Of a stretch of DNA of 21,085 nt, positions 4,811 to 21,085 are shown piece after piece; the stretch's first letter is position 1, and each line of letters opens with the position of its first letter. A program made the translations under genes and the position numbers. Under the pieces are notes generated by a model. It did no database searches and was not told the origin of the DNA. It was given only the letters and a program-made list of their open reading frames with translations. This DNA is from a virus. The stretch lies in IMG/VR virus record IMGVR_UViG_3300037258_000748, positions 1 through 21,085 of that record; one strand, 5' to 3'.

Positions 4811-4861
4811 ACGGCAACCTGCCTTCGTGCAGTAAATTAAAGCAAACAGAAGGTCTTCTTG

Positions 4862-5878
4862 ATGGATGACGAAGAGATCATAACTGAAGAACGCGTTTCT
4901 CTGACCGATCACGCACTCCGACGCTTATCCGTGGAAGAATTTCTGGTTGACTTTCTCGGCGGCCTCATTCCTGGGGTTCTTTTCTTCGCAGCCGCAGCGG
5001 TTGTTGTTTTTCCTGTCATGCACGCAGTCCTTCGTCAAGAGGGGAGGACAAATCATCCCGATCTAGAAGGTGCTGCTTTAGCGACAATAGCCGCAACAAA
5101 GGATACACCGAACGCCTTGTGGTTCGCCATTTTGATCGTCGCGTTGCTGGTCTCATACGTCGTGGGCCATCTTTTCTATAGACATGACCCGAACGGCCCG
5201 GACCGTCGCAGCTTCCGATGGCTGGCGCGAAGGCGCCAATATCGAAAAACAGACTTGGCGGTTCAGCCGGTCAAGAAATGGCTATGGCTAGTCTTTTGTC
5301 CTTGGAAACTAGATCGGAAGGAAGTCCTTCGCGAGGAGTTGGCTTGCGAAAATTGGGAGGAATGCCAGTTTCCCTATCCTCATTATGATGAGTACTTGAA
5401 GAAGCGCGGTCTCAATCACTTGCTTCCTTGGGCTGTCTGGACTTCTCAGCCTGATCACAGGACAAAGAACTACATCAATCGCTTAAAAATACTTCTTCGC
5501 CAGCGCCATCCGGATAAGTGCGCATCAATCGTCCGGAATGAAGCTCATGTTCGATTGGCCACTTCGACTTGGTATGTTTCTGGGACACTTCTTGCTCTTT
5601 CAGTGGGCGGCCTGGGGAGCCTGCTTACTTTGGCGATAGTGAGGATGCGTTCACAGCCAACCCCACTCTCGGCAGTGCTGCTCGGCGAATATCTACCTGC
5701 AAGCTCTTGCTGTTTTGCGGTTTTGCTGTTCGCATTGTATGCGCGCATTTCGATTGCACAGTTCCTGCATTATCAACGAATGCGTGAAGTGTACTACGTT
5801 TTAGAGACGGCACTCACGGCGCTCCATAGAGCCCCAGGGAGTGCACCCCATGCGAAACCGCATTCACATGGAGCCTAG
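4862..5878 (+). CDS. Multi-spanning membrane protein of unknown function (probable moron)
   Basis: I do not recognise a characterised family. The 338-aa protein has an acidic N-terminus (MDDEEIITEERV), then hydrophobic segments at about 31-53 and 86-104, a long polar and basic central region (about 105-235) with 'PYPHYDEYLKKRGLNHLLPW' and 'RNEAHVRLATSTWYV', two more hydrophobic segments at about 240-260 and 275-297, and a cytoplasmic-looking tail 'FLHYQRMREVYYVLETA'. Four membrane passes are likely. The ATG at 4862 is preferred over a TTG one codon earlier because GAAGG lies about 8 nt upstream. It is on the opposite strand to all surrounding head genes, is visibly more AT-rich, and has its own TATAAT, which is the pattern of a moron expressed from the prophage. 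Superinfection exclusion or another host-benefit role is inference only. Confidence 0.85.
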   Translation: MDDEEIITEERVSLTDHALRRLSVEEFLVDFLGGLIPGVLFFAAAAVVVFPVMHAVLRQEGRTNHPDLEGAALATIAATKDTPNALWFAILIVALLVSYVVGHLFYRHDPNGPDRRSFRWLARRRQYRKTDLAVQPVKKWLWLVFCPWKLDRKEVLREELACENWEECQFPYPHYDEYLKKRGLNHLLPWAVWTSQPDHRTKNYINRLKILLRQRHPDKCASIVRNEAHVRLATSTWYVSGTLLALSVGGLGSLLTLAIVRMRSQPTPLSAVLLGEYLPASSCCFAVLLFALYARISIAQFLHYQRMREVYYVLETALTALHRAPGSAPHAKPHSHGA

Positions 5879-5979
5879 CAGGCAAACCGTCGAGAGTGGC
5901 CTCGGATATTGGTTGCTTCACCAGGTCATTTTGAACCACAATGCCCGATCGTCGGAAATGAGGTGCTGAAGCCAAGCCA

Positions 5980-6249
5980 TCACCACTGCTCCCACGGCGG
6001 GAACCCCGCCACGTGGGGACCGTCCCCACGCCGGTGTTCCGCGAGCGTCGACTTGCTGGTCTTCTGAGCACTGGCCTCCCGGATGGCGTCTTCGGTTTCG
6101 GCGATGGCCTTCCGAATGTCATCAACGGTTCGATACTGCACCTCGCGCCCATCGGGAAAGCGCGCGCGCAGCGTCGGGTTGCCAAGCGCCATGTACAGCG
6201 CGTTCAAGTTTGAAGTCAGTTGCGCGACGGTCAGAGTGGTGAGCGCCAT
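5980..6249 (-). CDS. gpW-like head-tail connector/head completion protein
   Basis: This 89-aa protein begins MALTTLTVAQLTSNLNALYM and continues with 'RFPDGREVQYRTVDDIRKAIAETEDAIRE'. It resembles lambda gpW: a short helix, a beta hairpin containing the 'v..dGr.v.y' strand, then a helix. gpW plugs the portal after packaging and provides the site for gpFII. It lies directly after the large terminase gene, as W follows A in lambda; its ATG overlaps the terminase TGA by one base (TGATG), which fixes this start over an in-frame upstream start at 6276. The next head gene on this strand is separated by the inserted plus-strand membrane-protein gene. Confidence 0.75.
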   Translation of the reverse strand: MALTTLTVAQLTSNLNALYMALGNPTLRARFPDGREVQYRTVDDIRKAIAETEDAIREASAQKTSKSTLAEHRRGDGPHVAGFPPWEQW

Positions 6250-8144
6250 CAGAACCAGTTCCTCCGTGGGACCCACGGCTCGGGAGCTGTCCGCTCAATG
6301 AACGCGGGTGGCACGGTCTCGGTCGGTGCCTGCGGATGCGGCTCCCGCTGCGACACGACCGGCTTCGACTCAGCGCGTCGACCACCCGCCATCTGCGCGA
6401 ACTTGTCACAGTGTGCGCCCAGCCGCAAGCCGCTCGCGTACAGCGCGTACAGCGCCGCGTAGGCGTACACCCGGCAGTCCAGCGCTTCGTTTCTCGCGCC
6501 AGCGGCCTTCTTCCATTCCTGCTTCGGGAAGCCGTTGTGATAGCGCGTGAATTTCCTCTCGGCCGTCAATTGCTCGAAGTACTCCAACTCGCGCCCGAGG
6601 GGAAAGTGACAGAATCCCGGCCCCGGCTCCTGGATCTTCAGGCGGTCATAAATCGCCGTCTTCGCGGCGTCGACCCCGACCATGAAGAACGGTGTCTGGT
6701 TCTTCCGGCTCGGCTTACGAGGCCAGATCGGAGTCTGACCGGGCCGTCCTTTCACCGCGTATACGCGTCGCGCATAGCGGTCGCGCGTGAACCGAAGAAC
6801 CAGCGCGTCCTTGAATCCACAGTCGATCGCCGCCGCAACCACGCGCATGCCCAGGCCAGACTCGTGCATGCACTCGGAAGTGAGCAGTCCCTCCAGGTGA
6901 TCCCAGACCTCGTTGCGCATAATGTCGCCGGGGATCACGTGATAGGCAATCGACCACGACTCCTCATCGCGCCCCCATCCGACGAGCTCCACCTCGAGCC
7001 GATCCGCCTGGACGTCCACGCCGGCCGTAATCAACGCCGCGCCCTCCGGCGCCTCGGACTCGAATGGCTCGCAGCGATTCCACAGCGCCCGCTCGTCCAT
7101 AGGAGTCTCGTGCTTCTCTTCCCACAGTTCGGCGAGCACCGTGTTCACGAACGCCTTGAGCGTCTCAGGCGATTTCTTCGCCGCAAGGAACTCAACAGCA
7201 ATCGATCCCCAACTCCGCTTCGGCGAGATCAGCTGCGAGACGCGGAACCCAGGAATCGGCGACGAAGGATTCTGCGCGCGATACTCGCCGTGCTCCACCA
7301 TCCGCGCTTTCTCATGGTGCGGGATCAGTTCGTGGCATCCAGCGCAGCGATACGCCGCTTCTTCCGGTTTCCCTTCGGGCCACACAAGTCCAGGCCCGGT
7401 GCCGTCGCCGAGCACCAGCACCTGGAAGTAACCGCACTTTGGACATGCCACGAAGTAATCGCGCTGGTCGCTTTCAAGCCACGCGAGTTCGATCCGGCTG
7501 ATGCCCTTGATCGTCGGCGTCGACGCCATGACGATCTTCTTGTTGTGCGCGAACTCGGAGGTGCGCTGGATCGCCAGCGACACCGGATCGCCTTCTGTGC
7601 CCGCGCTCGCCGGATAGCGATCCACCTCATCGAGGAGCGCATACCGGATCGGCCGCATCGCAAGGCCGGAGGGTGAGATCGCCCCTGTGAAAGTGATGTG
7701 CCCTTCCCCGTTCGCGAGTACCTTGTGCAGCGTGGTGTTGTTCGAATCGCGCGACTTGGCCGGCGCGATCTTGCCGTGCAGCGAAGGCGTGGAGCGGAAC
7801 ATCGGAGCGACGCGGTCCTTCGAGAGCGCCTTGGCATCCTCGGTACGCGGCTCGACCACCAGCACCGGCCCCGGATCAACGTCGGCAATGAAGCCGATGA
7901 AGTTCAGCAGCACTTCCGTCTTCAGAAGCTGCGCCGCCGAAAGCAGCACGACCTGCCGGCACGGATGCGCAGGACTGAGCACCTCCATCGGCTCGCGCTG
8001 ATACGGCCGCGTGTGCCACTGTCCGCGCTCGGCCGCCGCGCCACCGGTGAGCACACGATTCTCGTCGGCCCACTTCGCGACCGTGATGTCGCGCGGCGGC
8101 AGCATCGCCGCGGCGCCCACTTCGTGAATCGAAAACGGCTGCAT
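6249..8144 (-). CDS. Terminase large subunit, GpA family (Phage_GPA)
   Basis: The motor ATPase and nuclease that cuts concatemeric DNA and pumps it through the portal. From the ATG at 8144 it is 631 aa, the usual size of GpA proteins. Seen in order (add two if the TTG at 8150 is used): 'PYQREPMEVL' near 47-56, a variant Walker A 'SAAQLLKTE' at about 69-77, Walker B 'ALLDEVDR' at about 169-176, a coupling motif 'MASTPTIKGISRIE' at about 206-219, and a zinc-binding pair CPKC...CAGC at about 234-270. The second half, with 'AGVDVQADRLEVELVGWG' and 'AAIDCGFKDALVLRF', fits the nuclease domain. The TTG at 8150 would overlap the small-subunit stop by 4 nt, so the exact start is open. Confidence 0.95.
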   Translation of the reverse strand: MQPFSIHEVGAAAMLPPRDITVAKWADENRVLTGGAAAERGQWHTRPYQREPMEVLSPAHPCRQVVLLSAAQLLKTEVLLNFIGFIADVDPGPVLVVEPRTEDAKALSKDRVAPMFRSTPSLHGKIAPAKSRDSNNTTLHKVLANGEGHITFTGAISPSGLAMRPIRYALLDEVDRYPASAGTEGDPVSLAIQRTSEFAHNKKIVMASTPTIKGISRIELAWLESDQRDYFVACPKCGYFQVLVLGDGTGPGLVWPEGKPEEAAYRCAGCHELIPHHEKARMVEHGEYRAQNPSSPIPGFRVSQLISPKRSWGSIAVEFLAAKKSPETLKAFVNTVLAELWEEKHETPMDERALWNRCEPFESEAPEGAALITAGVDVQADRLEVELVGWGRDEESWSIAYHVIPGDIMRNEVWDHLEGLLTSECMHESGLGMRVVAAAIDCGFKDALVLRFTRDRYARRVYAVKGRPGQTPIWPRKPSRKNQTPFFMVGVDAAKTAIYDRLKIQEPGPGFCHFPLGRELEYFEQLTAERKFTRYHNGFPKQEWKKAAGARNEALDCRVYAYAALYALYASGLRLGAHCDKFAQMAGGRRAESKPVVSQREPHPQAPTETVPPAFIERTAPEPWVPRRNWF

Positions 8145-9385: not shown

Positions 9386-10735
9386 TCATGTCGTAGTGTT
9401 CATTCTTTCGGCTTTCACTTGCTCAAACGTCCGACCATCGCCATCGAGCGTTGCTTCTTGGCCGGTGAGCCGCTGCCATCGCTCAACCACGACATCGACG
9501 TATTTCGGATCGAGCTCCAGCCCGTAGCAGACGCGCTCGGTCAGTTCAGCCGCGGCGAGTGTAGTGCCGCTGCCGAGAAACGGTTCGTACACTAATTCGC
9601 CGAGCCTGGTGTGATTCAGAATCGGTCGCCGCATCAGCGCGACGGGTTTCTGCGTCGGATGATCGAGCTTCTCCTCATCCGACCCACCCATAATAAATTT
9701 CGGCGACGGCGAATCCCAGATGGTAGAGTTCTCGCCGGGCTTCCCGTACCACGGCGCGTTCTTCTTTCGGACGTACCAACAGGGCTCGTGCTGGAACCAG
9801 TAGTGCGTTCTCGTGAGCACAGTCCGTCCCTTGTTCCAGATGATCTGCTGGTGATGTAGAAAGCCAATTCGCAGCAAGCCATCGAGAACCTCGCGCGTGA
9901 ACTTTGATGCGTGCCAGACGTAGGCCACCTCGAGGCTCGGCACCAGCGCGAAGGCTTCCGACCAATCCGCGCGCGTGTCGCCCGAGATTTCCGTTTGCGT
10001 GTGACCCTCAGTCCGGTGCTTCATGTAGCTCGCCTCGGCGGGTCCGCAACCATTCAGCCCGGCGCGATCGCGCCACTCGGAATCAAGCTCAATTCCATAG
10101 GGAGGGTCCGTCACCATCAGGAACGGTTTGCGATCACCGAGCAACCGGGCCACCGCCTCGGGGCTGGTAGAATTGCCGCAGAGGACGCGGTGTTGACGAC
10201 GCGGATCGCCGCAGAGCCACAGGTCGCCGAGCCGGGTGACGGGCGCGACCGGCGGCAGCGAAACCAGATCCTCTTCCCCGCTCGTTTCCTCGGCTGGGAA
10301 CAGGTAGGCGTTAAGTTCATCCTGATCGAATCCTGTTAAGGCAAGATCGAAGTCGCTGTCCAGTTCTTGGATGCTCTGAAGTTCCGGCCCGATCAGATCC
10401 AGATCCCAAGTCGCTTCGTCGTGGGACCGGTTGTCCATCAGCCGGTACGCCTTCACCTGGCCGGGCGTGAGATCGAGCGCGACGTGCACGGGAACCTCGG
10501 TCATCGCCATCGACTGGGCGGCCAGCAGACGGACGTGGCCGACGATAATCACGCCGTCGGCATCGACCACGATCGGCTGACGCCACCCAAAGGCTCGAAT
10601 GGAGGAAGCGACCTTCTCAACTGCCGACGCAGGAATCACCCGGGCATTGTTCGGATACGGAGTGACTCGGCCAATCAGCCACCACTCGACGGCGAACGCC
10701 GGGGACTCCGGTTTGGTTTGATTGGGGCGGCGCAT
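9386..10735 (-). CDS. ParB-domain / DNA methyltransferase fusion (beta-class N6/N4 type)
   Basis: This 449-aa protein has two domains. Residues about 12-100 are ParB/sulfiredoxin-like: 'RVTPYPNNARVIPASAVEKVASSIRAFGWRQPIVVD' followed by 'GHVRLLAAQ' (66-74). Residues about 170-425 are a DNA methyltransferase of the N4-cytosine/N6-adenine family, with catalytic motif DPPY at 210-213 and the S-adenosylmethionine motif FLGSGTT at 386-392. This order (DPPY before FxGxGT) is the beta class. 'DHPTQKP' at 359-365 is a typical linker motif. Such fusions are common in phages and probably protect phage DNA from host restriction; no restriction gene is adjacent. ATG 10735 is chosen over an in-frame TTG at 10762. 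Target sequence and the substrate base are unknown. Confidence 0.9.
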   Translation of the reverse strand: MRRPNQTKPESPAFAVEWWLIGRVTPYPNNARVIPASAVEKVASSIRAFGWRQPIVVDADGVIIVGHVRLLAAQSMAMTEVPVHVALDLTPGQVKAYRLMDNRSHDEATWDLDLIGPELQSIQELDSDFDLALTGFDQDELNAYLFPAEETSGEEDLVSLPPVAPVTRLGDLWLCGDPRRQHRVLCGNSTSPEAVARLLGDRKPFLMVTDPPYGIELDSEWRDRAGLNGCGPAEASYMKHRTEGHTQTEISGDTRADWSEAFALVPSLEVAYVWHASKFTREVLDGLLRIGFLHHQQIIWNKGRTVLTRTHYWFQHEPCWYVRKKNAPWYGKPGENSTIWDSPSPKFIMGGSDEEKLDHPTQKPVALMRRPILNHTRLGELVYEPFLGSGTTLAAAELTERVCYGLELDPKYVDVVVERWQRLTGQEATLDGDGRTFEQVKAERMNTTT

Positions 10736-10822
10736 GGGTGACAACTTCAACGGGGGTGACAACCTGGTAAAATCAAGCCCGATCTCGAAGAATCAATGCT
10801 TTAAGAGCAGGGTGACAACCTG
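10736..10822. repeat. Three direct copies of GGGTGACAAC upstream of the methyltransferase gene
   Basis: GGGTGACAAC occurs at 10736-10745, 10754-10763 and 10810-10819. The last two copies extend to the same 13 bases (GGGTGACAACCTG, 10754-10766 and 10810-10822). The first copy abuts the methyltransferase ATG. Start-to-start spacings are 18 and 56 bp. This may be an operator or repeated binding site for a regulator, possibly the ParB-domain protein itself, but that is a guess. Confidence 0.6.
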
Positions 10823-12038: not shown

Positions 12039-12908
12039 GTGACGATTATTGCGGGGTTCCATGTTCAAAACGGCATCCTTCTAGCTGCCGACACGATGTA
12101 CACAGGGGGAACCAAAGTCCACCAGCCGAAACTCTTTGGTTACACACTTAACGCGAATACCATTGAGTCTTGCTCGCTCGTATTCGCATTGGCGGGGCAT
12201 GAGAATTACGGAAAAATGGCCATCGACGATTGCGTCGAGGAAATTCTGGGGTGCGAGCCAAAGCATCGAACGATGAAGGCGATTAAAAAGGCGCTCCGTA
12301 AGGCGGTCAAGGCGATCAATGATGAATACGTAGACACCCGTACGGACCCTGCCGAGAAAGAGGCGGCCAAGTTTGATCTAATCATTGGGGCGTGGCTGCC
12401 CCTTGCTGGTGGCCTCCAGATGTTTAAGAGCAGCGGCCCTGCCGTCCTCCCGGCGGGGCTGTATCATTGCGCGGGAATCGGCGCGTATCTGGGAGATTAC
12501 TTGATGCGCAACGTCGTCAGCCAGTCAATGAATCTAAAAGCTGCTGCGCTTCTAGCGATACAAGCGCTTGGTGCTGCAAAGACGTACGATTCAAATTGCG
12601 GGGGCGATACCCAGTTCATGACAATCTCCCCAGGTGGAGGACTAAGCCCCGTTGTTCCCTACACAATTCATAATTCGGAGTCGTACATCTCGCAATTCGA
12701 GTCATTCTCCCGCAGGCTTTTGTTCAACGTTGGCGATGCAGATATGAGCGATGCTGATTTCGAAGCATGGCTAACAGCTTTCACTGATCACGTGAGGGTA
12801 ATTAGGAGACTATGGAAAGGCCAAGGCTGGGCTGAACTGAATCAGCAACTCGCCAAACTTAGGGCAACAGCGCCACCAAATCCTCCACAGCCCACAAGCG
12901 ATCAGTAA
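12039..12908 (+). CDS. Proteasome-type Ntn hydrolase (transposon passenger)
   Basis: This 289-aa protein starts (M)TIIAGFHVQNGILLAADT. With the initiator Met removed, the new N-terminus is Thr1; Asp falls at 17 and Lys at 30, close to the Thr1/Asp17/Lys33 catalytic set of proteasome beta subunits and HslV. Later stretches also match that fold: 'LVFALAGHENYGKMAIDD', 'DLIIGAWLPLAGGLQMF', 'YHCAGIGAYLGDYLM' and 'MNLKAAALLAIQAL...GGDTQFMTISPGG'. The GTG at 12039 is chosen because AAGGAG precedes it by 6 nt and because it puts Thr at position 2; the frame is open to 11919 but the extension has no coding character. The C-terminal tail (from about 215) is extra compared with HslV. No unfoldase ATPase gene is nearby. 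Its 3' end overlaps the convergent transposase by 50 bp. Protease activity is inferred. Confidence 0.8.
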   Translation: MTIIAGFHVQNGILLAADTMYTGGTKVHQPKLFGYTLNANTIESCSLVFALAGHENYGKMAIDDCVEEILGCEPKHRTMKAIKKALRKAVKAINDEYVDTRTDPAEKEAAKFDLIIGAWLPLAGGLQMFKSSGPAVLPAGLYHCAGIGAYLGDYLMRNVVSQSMNLKAAALLAIQALGAAKTYDSNCGGDTQFMTISPGGGLSPVVPYTIHNSESYISQFESFSRRLLFNVGDADMSDADFEAWLTAFTDHVRVIRRLWKGQGWAELNQQLAKLRATAPPNPPQPTSDQ

Positions 12909-13683
12909 TACCCGCTGCCATCGCAGGCGAGACCCTGAGGGTCTGATGCTGCCTTACGTAGTTGTAGTACATCGTGTGAATCGCGACAGTCGCGATGTGA
13001 TTCTCAAGCTTCTTTGAAAAGGCGTTTGTTAAACGCGTGAAGCGGCGCATCGACATTCTCATTGTGAGGTTCTGGCGCTCGATATAGCTGGTGCTGATGT
13101 GGCGCGGCTCGGGCTTGCCGCTAATTGCCTTTGGCTCACAGCCAATGCACGTTGCGGGGCTGTAGCGCTTCTGTGGTTCCGCTGATTCTCCGTAAACCTT
13201 AATCAGCATGGCATAATCGATTTGCTCTCCGAATGCAGCGTCAACAGCGGTGAGATAGAGCTTGAGGCCGTCGGTAGTAAGTTGCACCCGATTCTTGAGA
13301 CGGCCTGCGAGGTCCTGAATAAACTGGGTTGCGGTCGCCGGGTCACGTTTACCAATTAGCCACGAACAGATAAGTTTCGAGTCGGCATCAATTGCGACAA
13401 AGGTCCAAGCATCGCCGCAAAACTTCTCAGCGGACATTGCCGGAGTGACATTCTTTTCCTTAGCCGCAATAAACGACCAAAGTTCGTCGCACTGAATCCG
13501 CTTGGCATTCAGGTTCACCAAGTTTTTATCAAGGTAGTCCGCACAAGCCGCGCCGAGTTCCACCAGCAGCTTCGCGATTGTGTTTTTCGATGCTCCCGTC
13601 ATGCGGACGGTAGAGCGAATCGAGCAGCCTTCAACTAGGGCGGTTACGATCTGCACTCGCTTGTCTTTGGCTAGCTTGTTCAT
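12859..13683 (-). CDS. IS1-family transposase (single ORF, DDE)
   Basis: This intact 274-aa transposase has an N-terminal helix-turn-helix part, 'RVQIVTALVEGCSIRSTVRMTGASKNTIAKLL' (9-40), and a DDE catalytic core with D66 in 'RIQCDELWSF', D138 in 'LTTDGLKLYL' and E202 in 'SYIERQNLTMR'. This is the layout of the IS1-family branch that makes transposase from one uninterrupted ORF rather than by frameshifting. The start at 13683 follows a good promoter so closely that the transcript may be leaderless. The 3' end overlaps the convergent Ntn hydrolase gene. With perfect ends and a full catalytic set the element may still be able to move. Confidence 0.93.
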   Translation of the reverse strand: MNKLAKDKRVQIVTALVEGCSIRSTVRMTGASKNTIAKLLVELGAACADYLDKNLVNLNAKRIQCDELWSFIAAKEKNVTPAMSAEKFCGDAWTFVAIDADSKLICSWLIGKRDPATATQFIQDLAGRLKNRVQLTTDGLKLYLTAVDAAFGEQIDYAMLIKVYGESAEPQKRYSPATCIGCEPKAISGKPEPRHISTSYIERQNLTMRMSMRRFTRLTNAFSKKLENHIATVAIHTMYYNYVRQHQTLRVSPAMAAGITDRLWAVEDLVALLP

Positions 13684-14396: not shown

Positions 14397-14447
14397 AGTT
14401 TTTGAAAACAAGTCGTCAGACCCGTCAGTTTTCCCTCAACCCATCAG
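14397..14447. repeat. Right arm of the large inverted repeat split by the transposon
   Basis: It contains AGTTTTTGAA (14397-14406), CGTCAGACCCGTCAG (14414-14428) and CCCATCAG (14440-14447), mirrored in 11627-11666. It overlaps the last codon and stop of the helicase gene. The 15-bp block itself holds two direct CGTCAG units. Candidate roles are a replication origin with iterons or a terminator. Confidence 0.7.
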
Positions 14448-15913
14448 CCACGGGGTTGCTCGTCGTGGGAGCGAAGTCCGATGCCGATGTACACCGCGCC
14501 ACGCTCTGAGTGGATTTTCGCGAAGCCACGATCCGTGAGCTTCGTCCCGAAGGCCGTAGAGGTTAACGGCGATCGTTCGCCGCCATCCGTGGCCCACTGC
14601 TTGTAATCGGTGTACAAGGCGGTCGCGCTCGCCCGGCACTCGTCGCCCGCAACGCAGCGCTCTTGGATGAACCGCCCGAGTTGGTCCATGTCTTCCCGCC
14701 ACTGATCTTTCGCAGCCTCGACCTCCGCAGGTTTCCCAATTCCCTCGGCATACCAGAGCCGCGCGCCGTCAACCGCCCAGGCAAGAATCCCTTCGGCTTC
14801 AGTCAGCAGTTTGCCGGGAAGCTCCTTATCGATCTGCTCTTTGGGAATCGTCACCGTGAACGGAATCGGGTGCAGCCGGTTGAATGTTGCTTTGTCGTCC
14901 ACGTCGCGGATCGTGGGCTTGCGGTTGGTGTCCATCCACAGTTTGTGCGTTTCGACGAACTCGATCGGGTTCTCGTACTTTCGTGTCGCCTTGATTTTGC
15001 CCATCCCCTGCGTGATGCGCTTCAGCTTCCCTTGCGCGAGCCGCTGCCCCTCTTCGGTTTCGGAAGTCTGGACGAAGCGCGCTCCCCGCAGGTCCGCGAG
15101 GTCGGCTTGGGTGTTATTCGACTCCTGCCGCACCATGAGCGTGTCTACCTGAAGCAGAACACTATATTCCTCGACAAGATTACGGAACGTGCTGAGCATG
15201 GTGCTCTTGCCGTTGTCTCCGGTGCCGAACGGAATGAAGACGGCCTTCTCGATCGTCGTGCCGGTGAGCGAGTAACCCAGTGCCCGCCGAAGGTAAGCCA
15301 CCAGGCGTCGTGAACGATCGCTATCAGCGTCCGATGCATCCGGGCCGCCGCCCAACACCTGCGCGAGGAACGTCAGCCATTGCGGGCACGCCGCCGACGG
15401 AGTGTATCTGTACCGCACGAGTTTGGTAATGAGGTCCGAACGCCGGTGTTCGCGCATCTCGCCGGTTCGCAGATCCACCGTGCCGTTTAGGAAATTCAGC
15501 GCGAACGGGTCCGTATCAAGTTCGGCTGGACGCGCGTAGATTTCACATTCCGCCATCGACAGCATGCTGCTGATGCGGCGGGCGTCGAGTGATGAACGCG
15601 CGAACTTCTCAGCTTTCTCGTTAGTGCCCCGGTCAATGGCCTGCTTCAGAAATTCGAGCATCGTCATCTTCGCAAGGCGGCGCGTCTGATCGGTGTCATC
15701 GACGGCCCAGCGCATGCCGTCCCAAACCAGCCATTTCTTGAAGGCGTGGCAATATTTCAGATCCTCGCCGTAGAGCGCAATCAGGCGCTCAGCGTTGCCA
15801 TGATCGTTGTAGAGATACGACAGGAGATCAGGCACATCGCCGGCATGCTCTGGCTCTTGAAACCGCTGGACGAATGTGTCGATGTCAGCCTCGTCGCGGA
15901 TTTCATTCGTCAT
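14444..15913 (-). CDS. Phage replicative helicase/primase, D5/P4 type
   Basis: This 489-aa protein has the P4-family phage/plasmid primase C-terminal layout. A D5_N-type domain carries 'DPFALNFLNGTVDLRTGEMREH' (135-156) and 'SDLITKLVRYRYTPSAACPQW' (159-179). An SF3-type helicase core follows, with Walker A 'GTGDNGKST' (230-238), 'LADLRGARFVQTSETEEG' and 'MGKIKATRKYENPIEF'. A C-terminal winged-helix-like region spans about 420-480. It unwinds DNA at the phage or element origin. Its ATG overlaps the stop of the CHC2/TOPRIM primase by 4 nt, so the bifunctional P4-type polypeptide is split here into two coupled genes. Its end lies in the inverted repeat interrupted by the transposon. Confidence 0.9.
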   Translation of the reverse strand: MTNEIRDEADIDTFVQRFQEPEHAGDVPDLLSYLYNDHGNAERLIALYGEDLKYCHAFKKWLVWDGMRWAVDDTDQTRRLAKMTMLEFLKQAIDRGTNEKAEKFARSSLDARRISSMLSMAECEIYARPAELDTDPFALNFLNGTVDLRTGEMREHRRSDLITKLVRYRYTPSAACPQWLTFLAQVLGGGPDASDADSDRSRRLVAYLRRALGYSLTGTTIEKAVFIPFGTGDNGKSTMLSTFRNLVEEYSVLLQVDTLMVRQESNNTQADLADLRGARFVQTSETEEGQRLAQGKLKRITQGMGKIKATRKYENPIEFVETHKLWMDTNRKPTIRDVDDKATFNRLHPIPFTVTIPKEQIDKELPGKLLTEAEGILAWAVDGARLWYAEGIGKPAEVEAAKDQWREDMDQLGRFIQERCVAGDECRASATALYTDYKQWATDGGERSPLTSTAFGTKLTDRGFAKIHSERGAVYIGIGLRSHDEQPRG

Positions 15914-16635
15914 GCTGTCGTCGCCAGTCCTTTTTCGACCAGCTCGATCAGCTCAAGTTCACCGTGCCCTCTTTCGAACCACTCAGTGACGTCTTTCGCG
16001 CTTTCGAGTTCCAGAATGACGAGTCGTGTCACGCGGCCGAGCAGGGCGCGGGCAATTCGTGCGGCCCGCTCGCGACCCGGCCTATCGTTATCGGGGATCA
16101 GAATCACTTCGCGTCCAGCGAGCGCCTCGGTGAATTCAGGCAGCCATGGTACTTCAGCGCCTCCGGCGTTAGTTGTTGCGACGAAGCCCTGGCCCCGCAG
16201 GGTCTCCACGTCCTTTTCCCCCTCCACGACGAAGACAATGGGCGCCTCGACGATTTCCCGCAAATGATAGAGCACCTGTCGTTTGCTCTTCTTATTGATC
16301 CAGCCGCCGTGGCCGTCGGATCGTCGCTGGAAGAAGCCCTTCGGCTGGGTGCGCACCACCTGATAAAGCACGTTGCCGGCTTCATCCACGTAGTCGTAGG
16401 TGGCTACGATTGCCCGGCGTTGGTTCGCCGAGCGCTCCGGCCAGAGCCCCTTGGCCTTCAAAGCTGCGATCACGTCGCGTTGTGTGCATCCCGCGTGGCA
16501 GTGCAGCAACACTTTGCCGTCGCCTTCTCTGATACTTAGGCTGGGGTTGCGATCATCGTGTGCGGGGCATCTTGCCATCCAGCTGGAGCCGGAACGACGG
16601 GCTTCGAGAGCGTGCGCGATGGAAGCGGCGGTCAT
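15910..16635 (-). CDS. DNA primase, CHC2 zinc finger plus TOPRIM domain
   Basis: This 241-aa primase half has a CHC2-type zinc finger 'CPAHDD' (C23, H26) paired with 'LLHCHAGC' (C46, C50), a linker 'ATYDYVDEAGNVLYQVVR' (78-95) and a TOPRIM fold with 'FVVEGEKD' (E138) and 'LIPDNDRPG' (D182, D184). It synthesises primers at the phage origin and probably acts with the helicase encoded immediately downstream. The ATG at 16635 overlaps the upstream TGA by 4 nt (ATGA), which decides the start; a longer in-frame start at 16737 would run into the preceding gene. Confidence 0.9.
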   Translation of the reverse strand: MTAASIAHALEARRSGSSWMARCPAHDDRNPSLSIREGDGKVLLHCHAGCTQRDVIAALKAKGLWPERSANQRRAIVATYDYVDEAGNVLYQVVRTQPKGFFQRRSDGHGGWINKKSKRQVLYHLREIVEAPIVFVVEGEKDVETLRGQGFVATTNAGGAEVPWLPEFTEALAGREVILIPDNDRPGRERAARIARALLGRVTRLVILELESAKDVTEWFERGHGELELIELVEKGLATTA

Positions 16636-17153
16636 GACCGGCAACTTCTGGCGGCGAAATAGTTCGGCCCGATGCCTGCCGCGACGAGAGCTTCTCGGAT
16701 CTGGTGTTTCCGCCGGCTGATCATCTGCCGGGAACACCCGACTACGACGGCGGCATCAACTACGGAGAACCAGGACAATGCAAATGCTGTTTCGCGAACA
16801 ATCTGGGGTAGCGATGCCATGGCGCGTTCGAGGTCGATACGGAATTGGTGGATCGAAACGGAGGTGGGACCTGCATCCGGCACTGGGAGTTCGCGCCGCT
16901 GGCGTCCCTGTGCGAGGCGGTATCGCAGCATGGATGTCAACTCCTTGTCCATCAGGCGCGAGGCAAACGTTTGGAGCGACGCCCTCTCGGCGTCGAACTT
17001 TGGCCAGCGGGCAATGAACGTCAGAACGAGTTGGCTTTCGACATCCTCGCGCTCATCAGTGGCCAAGCGGCAGCGATGCACGAACGCACGCGCCTTCCGT
17101 CCTGCGAGATGTCGAATGGCCGGGAGCGCCTGGTCCAGAGTGACGTCAGCCAC
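16632..17153 (-). CDS. Sigma-factor-like (ECF-type) protein
   Basis: This 173-aa protein resembles a small sigma-70-type factor. Residues about 15-80, with 'RARAFVHRCRLATDEREDVESQLVLTFIARWPKFD' and 'ASLQTFASRLMDKELTSMLRYR', look like region 2. Residues about 105-160, with 'RAMASLPQIVRETAFALSWFSVVDAAVVVGCSRQMISRRKHQIREAL', look like region 4 with its helix-turn-helix. The GTG at 17153 is chosen because AAGGGG precedes it and it overlaps the upstream stop by 8 nt; the frame is open to 17309 but that part lies inside the upstream gene. It may direct RNA polymerase to phage promoters or bind DNA at the origin. The match is by pattern and is weaker than for the primase genes. Confidence 0.65.
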   Translation of the reverse strand: MADVTLDQALPAIRHLAGRKARAFVHRCRLATDEREDVESQLVLTFIARWPKFDAERASLQTFASRLMDKELTSMLRYRLAQGRQRRELPVPDAGPTSVSIHQFRIDLERAMASLPQIVRETAFALSWFSVVDAAVVVGCSRQMISRRKHQIREALVAAGIGPNYFAARSCRS

Positions 17154-17496
17154 GACGGCCCCCTTCGCTCCGCCCGCCAGCGAGTTCGATTTCCATCGAG
17201 AATGGAAGGCCATGCCGGACTTCGAGCGTGCGGATCTCTCCGGAGTCCACCTCGCGCACATAGGAAAAGAACTCCGCAAGCTGCTGCCGAAGCTCCAACG
17301 CGCCGTCAAGCGGTTTACCTGTTGTCGCGGCCGTCCCGAACTTGACGTACCGAACCGTGACGGGGGGCGGAGTTAGAACCAACTCGCCGCCGCGGATCTG
17401 GAGGTGCTCAAAGAGCCCAAAGCCGAGATGTTGCATCGCCGCGATGAACCCCACTTCGGACGGCCGCAGATTCTGGATGGCGATGGAGGAGGTCAT
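17146..17496 (-). CDS. Phage hypothetical protein (116 aa)
   Basis: The ATG at 17496 overlaps the TGA of the HTH gene by 4 nt. The protein begins MTSSIAIQNLRPSEVGFIAA, has 'MQHLGFGLFEHLQIRGGELVL' and 'TVRYVKFGTA', and ends in a Gly/Arg-rich tail 'LAGGRSEGGRRG' that also contains the ribosome site for the next gene. I do not recognise a family. The place in the operon, between a DNA-binding protein and a sigma-like protein, suggests a role in early regulation or replication. Confidence 0.75.
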   Translation of the reverse strand: MTSSIAIQNLRPSEVGFIAAMQHLGFGLFEHLQIRGGELVLTPPPVTVRYVKFGTAATTGKPLDGALELRQQLAEFFSYVREVDSGEIRTLEVRHGLPFSMEIELAGGRSEGGRRG

Positions 17497-17708
17497 CTCG
17501 CCGCCCCCGCCTGGAGAGCTGTTGGGGGCTGATGTGCGATGATCCACGCGTCAACGTCCTCGGGTCGATACCGGACCAGTGCGCCGATCTTGAGGTACTG
17601 AGGGCCTCGTCTTTGGCTGCGCCACTTTCTCAGCGTCAGAACGCTGATCGAGCAAGAGTCCGCCACTTCGTGTTCATTCAGGAGTCGCTGTTGTGTGTTG
17701 AGCTTCAT
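17493..17708 (-). CDS. Excisionase-family helix-turn-helix protein
   Basis: This 71-aa protein begins MKLNTQQRLLNEHEVADSCS and continues 'VLTLRKWRSQRRGPQYLKIGALVRYRPEDVDAWI', the standard HTH_17/excisionase-AlpA pattern (a MerR-like winged helix with 'GP.y.kiG..vrY...dv..wi'). Members act as excisionases or as small transcriptional regulators. It is the first gene of the replication operon and is coupled to the next gene by ATGA. The leader upstream holds a small hairpin (17721-17738). No integrase gene is in the window, so excisionase versus regulator cannot be settled. Confidence 0.85.
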   Translation of the reverse strand: MKLNTQQRLLNEHEVADSCSISVLTLRKWRSQRRGPQYLKIGALVRYRPEDVDAWIIAHQPPTALQAGAAR

Positions 17709-17720
17709 CTCGATTCTTGC

Positions 17721-17738
17721 TGCGGGGTGTTTCCCGCA
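17721..17738. repeat. Inverted repeat in the leader of the HTH gene
   Basis: TGCGGG (17721-17726) and CCCGCA (17733-17738) form a 6-bp stem with a 6-nt loop, 12 nt upstream of the HTH gene start. It is a possible operator for autoregulation. Confidence 0.35.
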
Positions 17739-17818
17739 ACCTCTACATCGAGAATGCCCGAGACAGGTTTTTCTGGATACGAACTTACGCGGAAGTAATC
17801 AGGAAGAAAACTGGAAGC

Positions 17819-18748
17819 TTAACGACGGGCGGCCCGCTTCAGGGATGGCGGCAATTCCCCACGAAGGAGTTGATCACTGGTCAAACCCATGCTCGTAGCC
17901 ATCGCCTCGAAATTCGACCTGCGCATCTCTCCGGTGGTTCGAAAACTGCGCACGGTTCGGTCTGTCGTATTGAATTGATTGCCAAACTGCGTGTCCGTGA
18001 GCTTCGTGTGTTCCAGGTAATCTGTCACCACCCTGAGGGCCTCTGCGCTCCCGAGGGTTCGGGACATCCGCTTTCTCGGTGCCTTTTTGCGCAACTCAGC
18101 GCGATCGCCAACCACGGTGGCAGCAGCGATCTCCAGAGTTGACACGTCAACGGCGACGCCAGAACCCTCAAGGCTCACGAGTTCGGACAGAGTCCGAGTC
18201 GGGATGGACGTTGTCGGGTTGAAGCCGGACGGAAGGCGGTGCGGCACCAAAAGAACTGGAGCCGGCGACTGCTGTAGGCGCGAACACTGGCCCAGCAGTT
18301 GAATACCATCCGGCCAACACAGTCCGCACATAAGAAAGAGTTCCCAATACGTGTCAGCGATCCGCCTTCGGCCGAGTAGCCACAAGCGGGACGGGACCAG
18401 TGTCGACGGTTTCGACGTGAGGCCAGCGGTTTTTCTGATCAAGGTCGCGATCTGGTCGAAATCAGCTTCCCAACGATGGAGATCGGCTGGGGCCAAAGGG
18501 ATGCGACCGATCTCCGGGCAGAGATAGTAGGGTTCGCCAGGCTTGCGTGGATCGTGAATGACCTCGACTGGATGAGGCGTTCCGCAGTCCCCGCAGATAA
18601 GTGCGGTTGCATCTGATGTTCGTCGGAGCAAGCCGAGACTGATGACGGCGTCGCGTTGAGCGGGTAGCCACTCTGCGAGTTCGGAAGCGATCAGGACGTG
18701 GTTGCGGAGCTCCGCCCGTCGCCAGACAAGATCGAGAGCGTCACTCAC
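17819..18748 (-). CDS. Unknown protein with Cys cluster and C-terminal HTH-like region (309 aa)
   Basis: The GTG at 18748 overlaps the TGA of the 387-aa gene by 8 nt (TTG 18754 is an alternative). The protein begins (M)SDALDLVWRRAELRNHVL. Near residues 52-59 it has 'CGDCGTPH' and at 77 another Cys in 'YYLCPEIGRIPL', a possible zinc site. A central 'LWLLGRRRIADTYWELFLMCGL' and 'APVLLVPHRLP' follow. The last 80 residues are basic and hold 'LTDTQFGNQFNTTDRTVRSFRTTGE', which looks like a helix-turn-helix. I have an impression of similar uncharacterised proteins in mobile islands but cannot name a family. It probably works with its overlapping partner. Confidence 0.8.
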   Translation of the reverse strand: MSDALDLVWRRAELRNHVLIASELAEWLPAQRDAVISLGLLRRTSDATALICGDCGTPHPVEVIHDPRKPGEPYYLCPEIGRIPLAPADLHRWEADFDQIATLIRKTAGLTSKPSTLVPSRLWLLGRRRIADTYWELFLMCGLCWPDGIQLLGQCSRLQQSPAPVLLVPHRLPSGFNPTTSIPTRTLSELVSLEGSGVAVDVSTLEIAAATVVGDRAELRKKAPRKRMSRTLGSAEALRVVTDYLEHTKLTDTQFGNQFNTTDRTVRSFRTTGEMRRSNFEAMATSMGLTSDQLLRGELPPSLKRAARR

Positions 18749-19904
18749 GCTCAATTCCCCATGGCTTGAGGTGCTGCTTGATAATCGCGTGCTCGACGAC
18801 CTGATCCTTGAGAGGGCACGAATTAGGTGAAATGTTGAAACTCACCGTTTTCGGCCTTGGCTTGCCCTGGATAAAGGTGACCTTCAGTTTCACCTGATCA
18901 ACCCGCAGGTCGTCTAGCCGCCAATTGTTTGTGTTCAGCGCGTCCTCGATCAGTGTGTGAATGCTTGCGCCATTGGAGTATGGGAGTAGTTCCAGCGTGA
19001 CCCTGCCCGTATGCTTGTCGGGGACCGACACCTGCATTGTGCGGATTGTGACGCTGAAGATACCAGCTCCCGCTTCTGTCGGGAAACTGAAAGAAGGGTC
19101 CTTCAGGTGATCGAGATAAAACGCAACGCCCGTCGGTGATTGCATCGAAAGATCTTCGGCTAATGCGGTCGAGGCAAAGATTCGTTCGAGGTCGCGTCGC
19201 AACTGCTTGGTGCCTTCGGCATAGAGCTCCAGGTGGCCGCGGCTCTCGTCGTACCGGAATACGACGTCAAATGCTGGCGTCTGCGGCCGCCGTCTCATCT
19301 TCCCATCCTCGTCGAAACCCGCAAATGTGTCCGGGTAGTCGGAAAGGTACACGATGAAGTAGTGAACGGAGCCGTGCCGGCGGAGGTCGAAGTCGTGGTA
19401 GTGCCCCCGTCCCTGGTTCTCGACATAGTAGTCCGACACCGCCTGTCTCAGAGCCATCCGCGCCTCGGGAGTGATGTTCGGAGGCTTCTTGGGAAGATCG
19501 TGCCGGCGATGCCAGTACCGCGTGAGATTGTCCGCATAATTCAGCTGACTGGCAACCTGGAACACTCCCGGGTATTCGAGCAGTGTGTGAAACGCCTTCT
19601 CTGTGTGGCTGGGAAGCGCTGCCAACTCCGCGACCAGATCTCTGCCGTGGAATCCCCCCTCTGCGATGATGACTTGAACACCCTGTTTGGTCGCAAGGCC
19701 GGCGACGTTTAGGAAATCCGCCCCGATTGTCTCTCGCGCGGTTGCCGGTAGCGCTTGCCAAGCCGCGTAAACGGCTTCGTAATCGTCCTCTTTCAAGCTA
19801 TCCCAGGGCAACTCACTGAGAACGCCGCGGCGATCGAAATACTGCCGAAGCATTGGAAAAGGAACAAGCAGGAGGAACTTTCGTGGATTGTACTCGATTC
19901 TCAT
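18741..19904 (-). CDS. Unknown protein (387 aa), partner of the downstream Cys/HTH protein
   Basis: The ATG at 19904 has GAGGG about 6 nt upstream and gives a protein beginning MRIEYNPRKFLLLVPFPMLR. The frame stays open to 20051, but the extra part is low-complexity and lacks a good ribosome site. Visible stretches include 'YFDRRGVLSELPWDSLKEDDYEAVYAAWQALP', 'NYADNLTRYWHRRHDLPKK', 'HYHDFDLRRHGSVHYFIVYLSDYPDTF' and 'AFDVVFRYDESRGHLELYAEG'. No membrane segment, signal peptide or nucleotide-binding loop is seen. I recall similar uncharacterised proteins in genomic islands but no function. Length and a clean start support a real gene, translated together with the 309-aa protein. Confidence 0.85.
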   Translation of the reverse strand: MRIEYNPRKFLLLVPFPMLRQYFDRRGVLSELPWDSLKEDDYEAVYAAWQALPATARETIGADFLNVAGLATKQGVQVIIAEGGFHGRDLVAELAALPSHTEKAFHTLLEYPGVFQVASQLNYADNLTRYWHRRHDLPKKPPNITPEARMALRQAVSDYYVENQGRGHYHDFDLRRHGSVHYFIVYLSDYPDTFAGFDEDGKMRRRPQTPAFDVVFRYDESRGHLELYAEGTKQLRRDLERIFASTALAEDLSMQSPTGVAFYLDHLKDPSFSFPTEAGAGIFSVTIRTMQVSVPDKHTGRVTLELLPYSNGASIHTLIEDALNTNNWRLDDLRVDQVKLKVTFIQGKPRPKTVSFNISPNSCPLKDQVVEHAIIKQHLKPWGIERE

Positions 19905-20426
19905 GACACCCTCGCGACCCGGTTGAAAGCCGGATGCTGAGCGCGGGGTCCGCGGCGCCCGGTCTTGCTGAACATCTTTGCTGAGAGTCGAGTGGGCTGA
20001 TCCGCTGCCGCCGAGCGCCTTCGCGCCCAACGCAAATTTCCCAGTTGCCACGGCAACGGCGACGCGTGCCGAGCAGTGAGGAGCGAAACGGCCTCCGCAT
20101 CCTCTGGGCTTCCCAGTCGAGATCGTTAATTCCCCGCGCTGGTGAACAACTCCCTCAGCTATTTACTTGCAATACAACCTCAAACCGAAATAGTCGAGAA
20201 CACGAACCAAACGCTGCCGCCGGGGGAGGAATGCGGCAGATGCTCGATCAGGCCCACCACCCGGCTGCGGGCGCGAAGGCCTATACTTAATGCTATCAAA
20301 ACAACAAGATGCCGTCGAATTGTTTGGTGGGATCTCGTCCAGGTCTGGGCCGGAGGATGCTCACTTGAGCTGGTCTGGCAATGACCCTGCACCTCCCGTG
20401 GACGCAGCTCGATTGAACGGAACCGT
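19905..20426. other. Divergent intergenic region of about 520 bp
   Basis: No convincing gene is present: frames here lack ribosome sites and family resemblance. It must hold promoters for the minus-strand unknown pair and the plus-strand helicase-like gene. A 14-bp inverted repeat with GTTGCC and GGCAAC arms (20044-20057) and a TATACT-like box (20282-20287) without a matching -35 are the only signals seen. It may mark the junction between phage-type genes and another island. Confidence 0.5.
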
Positions 20427-21085
20427 ATGGAGATTATCGACAATATTAACCGTTTGCTCGGTGACGATCTCAAGCAGTCGATCCGGGCCGGTGCCAAGGT
20501 CAGAATCGCGGCCTCGTGTTTTTCGATCTACGCCTTTGAAGCACTCAAAACGGAACTCGAGGCGATCGACTCCCTGCAGTTCATCTTCACGGCTCCAACG
20601 TTCGTTCCCAGCGAGGTCACGGACAAGGTCCGAAAGGAACACCGCGAATTCCACATCCCCAAGCTTGAACGGGAGCGCGGCTTCTATGGCAGCGAATTTG
20701 AAATCCGCCTGAAGAACAAGCTCACCCAGCGCGCTATTGCCAGGGAGTGCGCGGAGTGGATGCGCCGCAAGACCGCCTTCCGCTCCAATCGCGGCAAAGC
20801 TCCCATGCAACAGTTTGCCTGCCTGGAGGGGACGGGCACGGACGCAGTGTACATGCCACTCCACGGCTTTACCGCTGTGGACCTCGGCTACCAACAAGGC
20901 AACGCCGTCTCGAACATGGTCAACAAGATGGACGAGCCGTCCGTCGCCGCCACGTACATCAGCCTGTTCGATCAAATTTGGAGCGACGAGGAAAAGCTCA
21001 AGGACGTCACCGGCCTGATCTGCGAGCACATCGCGGCGGTGTATCAGGAAAACCCGCCGCAGCGCATCTACTTCCTGATGCTCTA
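20427..21085 (+). CDS. PLD-like domain/SNF2-type helicase protein, N-terminal part (runs off window)
   Basis: The plus-strand frame from ATG 20427 stays open to the window end (219 codons). It begins MEIIDNINRLLGDDLKQSIR and continues 'KVRIAASCFSIYAFEALKTELEAIDSLQFIFTAPTF', 'IPKLERERGFYGSEFEIRLKNKLTQRAIARECAEW', 'VYMPLHGFTAVDLGYQQGNAVSNMVNKMD' and 'AATYISLFDQIWSDEEKLKDVT'. This strongly resembles the N-terminal phospholipase-D-like part of large SNF2/DEAD-type helicase proteins found on mobile islands, often near DNA methyltransferases and other defence genes. The helicase motifs themselves would lie beyond the window. An in-frame TGA at 20385-20387 excludes a much longer N-terminus. A 222-aa frame on the other strand is only its shadow. 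Confidence 0.8.
   Translation, partial: MEIIDNINRLLGDDLKQSIRAGAKVRIAASCFSIYAFEALKTELEAIDSLQFIFTAPTFVPSEVTDKVRKEHREFHIPKLERERGFYGSEFEIRLKNKLTQRAIARECAEWMRRKTAFRSNRGKAPMQQFACLEGTGTDAVYMPLHGFTAVDLGYQQGNAVSNMVNKMDEPSVAATYISLFDQIWSDEEKLKDVTGLICEHIAAVYQENPPQRIYFLML

Follow-up and report, generated by a model that had tools for sequence, protein, structure and literature searches.

The Rex genes of lambda have been studied for decades. How widespread Rex-like immunity-region pairs are, and whether their main role is to tune lysogeny or to exclude rivals, is unsettled. RexA has a published structure like those of RdgC, Iml3 and Chl4; rexA is transcribed together with cI, and its product biases a bistable switch (PMC11077077). 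RexA, RdgC, Iml3 and Chl4 are reported to have a common DNA-binding scaffold (PMC11077077; PMC4080450), and the CENP-N/Chl4-CENP-L/Iml3 fold is reported to be similar to those of RdgC and TBP (PMC4080450). We describe a pair of genes, A and B, that, like lambda RexA-RexB and the Rex-like pairs of actinophages (PMC11077077; PMC6426606), forms a module of two genes in temperate-phage immunity regions, and that provides a clean system in which to ask this question. The Rex and A-B pairs have no sequence match. The RdgC/Iml3/Chl4 fold of RexA is weakly resembled by the model of A, which has an added helical N-terminal part. RexB, the partner of RexA, sits in the membrane and has four helices; B, by contrast, looks soluble, with Cys and HTH parts and, in the window's copy, a maximum 19-residue hydropathy of 1.35. 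Rex adjoins its repressor; A-B have XRE/ImmA or WYL genes nearby in many loci, but no repressor gene is visible in the window, the whole stretch of DNA analyzed here, which is a fragment of a soil phage, 21 kb long (21,085 bases). The pair and its neighbors are arranged as follows.

14444..15913, minus strand: D5_N/DUF5906 phage primase-helicase
15910..16737, minus strand: primase with zinc ribbon and Toprim, first gene of the replication block
16632..17309, minus strand: sigma-70-region-2-like protein (cluster c2), true start uncertain
17146..17547, minus strand: c7, a conserved small protein that comes after A-B in relatives
17493..17708, minus strand: AlpA/excisionase-like gene, 71 aa, directly downstream of B, assigned by reading its sequence
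17819..18748, minus strand: gene B, 309 aa from a GTG at 18748, with a zinc-type N-terminal domain and a C-terminal DNA-binding-like module
17855..18019, minus strand: HTH-like C-terminal module of B, the part exchanged among phages
18518..18595, minus strand: invariant cysteines of B (C-x2-C ... C) and a nearby His, presumed Zn site
18741..18748, minus strand: overlap of the A stop and the B start, 8 nt, GTGAGTGA
18741..19904, minus strand: gene A, 387 aa, ATG at 19904; phrog_37634
20427..21085, plus strand: start of gene C (219 aa), which encodes an HKD/PLD-SNF2 helicase, is divergent from A and runs off the contig

Near A-B, we found no Rfam RNAs or tRNAs and no promoters or terminators above chance; operator-like inverted repeats were found neither there nor upstream of A. 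Elsewhere in the window, an IS1/IS240-type transposase (12859-13683) separates the late and early gene blocks of the phage record, and a ParB-like nuclease domain is fused to a DNA methyltransferase (9386-10762; phage-family matches).

Genes A and B as a unit

Both open reading frames lie where the initial annotation had placed them, and their 8-nt overlap is confirmed. When positions 17301-20500 were shuffled 300 times, the longest run without a stop had a mean of 167 codons and a maximum of 314; length by itself is strong evidence for A, but only moderate evidence for B. The sequence GGGGA is located 7 nt upstream of the B start codon. We take A and B to be real genes because their homologues evolve under purifying selection, with dN/dS ratios of 0.05-0.11 for A and 0.19-0.23 for B. 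Their description as proteins of no recognized function also stood: neither has a match of worth in Pfam or NCBIfam, zero PADLOC families match A or B at E-values up to 1, and the single hit of A is to phrog_37634, a nameless family without a function (E = 1.1e-17, residues 5-387 of 387).

Single-sequence scans with A or B across the viral and genome collections found nothing, as did tblastn in phage and plasmid records; A-B homologues came to light only with alignments built from phage relatives. We collected the terminase relatives of the window, 35 virus records that are mostly partial, and found A in three of them, with B adjacent in the same three; therefore, such phages manage without A-B. 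An alignment of A found 17 viral loci, and an extended alignment found 24 genome loci, located in Acidobacteriota, Phycisphaerae, Lentisphaerae and Desulfatitalea. The gene is rare in the Acidobacteriota sample, where it is present in 3 of 297 genomes, one being the query's own.

Gene B directly follows A in 36 of the 42 loci, the window included. Where B is missing, either the contig stops at or just past the A match (L131, L132, L134 and L139), or A itself is broken or cut short (L123 and L138). Probing with B yielded only loci that have A, two of them new, and whole-genome searches added five A-B pairs and one A at a contig end. In total there are 43 intact pairs, including some nearly identical copies, with zero exceptions among loci that have an intact A and sequence continuing past it (43/43). 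Relatives also keep the genes tightly coupled, either overlapping or 1 nt apart. Across 38 pairs, the identities of A and of the B N-terminal domain correlate at 0.96, as linkage alone would also give. A and B are obligate, adjacent and coupled partners, and the co-occurrence analysis upheld the earlier suggestion that they form a unit: homologues were never found apart, or in housekeeping loci. Two marginal matches to B without A in Acidobacteriota (E ~1e-4, with internal stops) were rejected as noise. The open-access literature gave no sign of an earlier description of the pair.

Fold of A and domains of B

AlphaFold modeled A (pLDDT 82, pTM 0.57, 16 sequences) with a helical N-terminal part, at about residues 1-125, followed by a mixed alpha/beta part. 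The best PDB matches of the model are CENP-N/Chl4 chains and then RdgC, with RnlA and Iml3 lower (Foldseek E-values of about 0.007-0.02, TM-scores of about 0.2-0.4). The Z-scores are 7.5 for CENP-N/Chl4 and 5.7 for RdgC, which is within the range of unmatched models. The top BFVD match of the model is a phage 'recombination-associated protein', RexA is not among the best 50 fold matches listed, and a sequence search against solved structures in the PDB gave no match of note. None of these individual fold matches is significant, and as a set they are coherent; the model tentatively suggests that A weakly resembles the RdgC/CENP-N(Chl4) fold, which is the fold of lambda RexA.

The likeness to each relative has its limits. 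CENP-N/Chl4 and CENP-L/Iml3, the top fold matches, align from A residue 55 onward, but they are eukaryotic kinetochore proteins with about 12% identity or less to A, and likely share a scaffold only. RdgC may have its fold in common with A residues 125-387, but there is no Pfam match, and RdgC is a stand-alone, ring-forming protein, whereas A has an obligate partner. The RnlA toxin has a central alpha/beta domain (NRD) that the fold search ranks as similar to A, with Z-scores of 5.2-5.9 against the model. This match, and the organization of A and B as two overlapping genes, would suit a toxin-antitoxin pair related to RnlA/RnlB. We consider such a pair highly improbable: A has no Pfam match to HEPN, which RnlA contains, and the C-terminal half of its model stays alpha/beta, while B has DNA-binding modules and shows no match to any RnlB model in the scans.

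The initial annotation had seen in the 309-aa protein a Cys cluster, an HTH-like C-terminal part and a likeness to a sensor or regulator. The Cys cluster is the C-x2-C...C set, which is invariant in the 38 pairs, and the N-terminal domain also has a conserved W-x2-G motif. For the B of the window, the HTH is a weak match, to the phrog_7950 'repressor' at an E-value of 0.005, but it is backed by relatives, whose C-terminal modules are HTH or winged-helix-like. Judged by its sequence, a zinc-type domain joined to a DNA-binding one, B does appear to be a regulator-like protein. A fold search with the B model alone gave no convincing match.

The C-termini of B fall into at least three large types. 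Between L116 and L117, the A proteins are 93% identical and the B N-terminal domains are 77% identical, but the C-termini differ in length and belong to unrelated clusters, and therefore point to a recent exchange. On the tree of A, the C-terminal types of B mostly track clades; exchanges are therefore occasional.

The immunity/early region and its defense genes

We clustered and annotated the neighbors of A-B across loci. Upstream, 15 loci have a serine recombinase, the small c5 protein or both, 12 loci (11 plus L166) have XRE and/or ImmA/IrrE genes on the same strand, and four have a divergent WYL regulator; a divergent HTH_17 protein lies upstream in L099, and an HTH-ImmA fusion is divergent from the pair in L198 (G042:C152). 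Downstream, there are c7, the sigma-like protein, ParB-like, PDDEXK, AAA_24, primase, helicase and recombination genes, with the sigma-like group (cluster c2) present in 27 of the 42 loci. The setting that stays constant for A-B is a temperate phage's immunity/early region. The earlier placement at the accessory edge of a prophage was only partly right, as the window is a fragment of a virus, 21 kb long, and the pair in it abuts early replication genes.

These neighbors bear on an alternative in which A-B act in phage recombination, excision or replication, with A as an RdgC-like clamp that B loads at att sites or origins; the pair could, for instance, be a directionality factor of the neighboring serine recombinase, or a replication/recombination mediator. 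The serine recombinase or its c5 partner in the 15 loci, the downstream primase, AAA_24 and PDDEXK genes, the AlpA/excisionase-like gene adjoining B in the window and the RdgC-like hint from the modeled fold of A are consistent with such a role. However, in many loci XRE-ImmA or WYL genes are found in place of a nearby serine recombinase, and close relatives keep the replication block without A-B. We regard this role as unlikely.

Gene C lies divergently across a 522-bp gap from A. It was initially likened to the helicases of defense islands, correctly so: it is an HKD/PLD-SNF2 gene, probably of a defense-type operon, up to 75% identical to 'SNF2-related' plasmid proteins that head DUF4391/DNA-methyltransferase/DEAD-helicase operons, and a full-length homologue is classed as HKD+Snf2 by PADLOC. 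Only 219 residues are within the window, and a similar operon, if present, would extend past the contig end. We dropped gene C as a part of the A-B unit: it was found in 0 of the 35 related virus records, and relatives have other upstream genes.

Defense genes adjoin A-B in a minority of loci, and they are different ones each time. A diverged A-B in the Acidobacteriota sample (L197, G057:C100, 1610-9805) has cas9 and cas1 as divergent neighbors, together with a CRISPR array of 20 repeats and fragments that resemble integrases; in L198 (3-9677) the pair is divergent from a UvrD-like gene and BrxA/BrxB/BrxC-like (BREX) genes as well as from the fusion; in L121 (6282-8795) a defense-type protein combining SIR2 and nSTAND (SIR2-STAND) is encoded 131 bp downstream of B; and in L127 PDC-M30 is beside A-B. 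Because these neighbors vary and are absent from most loci, they fit cargo beside a fixed module.

The proposal that A-B is itself a defense module was not borne out, as its constant neighbors are phage regulatory and replication genes and gene C was found in none of the 35 related, mostly partial records. Defense is nevertheless possible, as one of two live readings, though not the leading one. According to it, A-B would chiefly be an anti-phage (superinfection-exclusion) module from the prophage that senses invading DNA and blocks it. A site beside or within the repressor operon fits the prophage-expressed rexAB and CarolAnn gp43/44 (PMC11077077; PMC6426606), the pair varies in presence and is replaced in one slot, defense genes are beside it in several loci, gene C included, and the swapping of targeting domains would suit an arms race. 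We find this reading doubtful, since no PADLOC family or effector or nuclease domain matches A or B, the window's A and B have no strong hydrophobic segment (maximum 19-residue hydropathies of 0.95 and 1.35), and what is constant around the pair is phage regulation and replication, not defense.

The reading that we place first, with tentative confidence, is that A-B is a Rex-like DNA-binding module of the temperate-phage immunity region, which steers lysogeny or excludes rivals. A would embrace DNA with its RdgC/RexA/Chl4-type fold, with little sequence preference, and the N-terminal domain of B would bind A. The C-terminal module of B would then provide sequence-specific targeting as an exchangeable reading head, and the complex would thereby be brought to the control region of its own phage, or to sites of replication or recombination. 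The most likely net effect would be a modulated decision between lysogeny and lytic growth, as reported for lambda RexA, and the exclusion of other phages may be a second activity. The reading gives a testable hypothesis for two phage protein families that are blank in current libraries.

Other pairs in the same slot

Relatives that have the same c7-sigma-primase-helicase block, but lack A-B, hold other overlapping pairs in its place. In L095, the slot contains A'-B', a SAP domain protein followed by a Cys-rich protein, and in L155 it contains A''-B'' (4854-6861). A' is present in 13 viral loci; in all 11 that we examined (ten of them distinct), B' is directly downstream. Regulatory genes also precede A': in L141, A' is overlapped by 4 nt by the gene for a LexA repressor that contains a peptidase domain, and in L143 likewise by a similar gene; ImmA-like genes lie before A' in L148 and L149, the latter also having an XRE gene.

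Comparison of profiles connected neither A with A' nor the N-terminal domain of B with B' (probability under 10%). Between A'' and A the probability is 6.5% over 247 columns, and between B'' and B it is 7.1%; as links from profile comparison, these are suggestive only. A-B is replaced in its slot by pairs of the same layout without a detectable sequence relation. We therefore call the pairs analogous because of their slot, their layout and their shared C-terminal modules, and do not assume that A and A' descend from a common ancestor. Three B' proteins have one each of the same C-terminal types as B, with identities of 40% over 190 aa, 47% over 85 aa and 28% over 123 aa (the E-values of this comparison refer to a set of 48 sequences).

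It is possible, though we would not yet lean on it, that these pairs belong to an undescribed and widespread class, in which a Rex/RdgC-like clamp is joined by an obligate zinc adaptor with a cassette-like targeting module, and of which at least three versions take each other's place in the slot, in phages of several bacterial phyla.

The second gene of the A''-B'' pair in L155 encodes a Cys-rich region and an HTH-like C-terminal region; by eye, the gene that precedes the pair is DinD-like.
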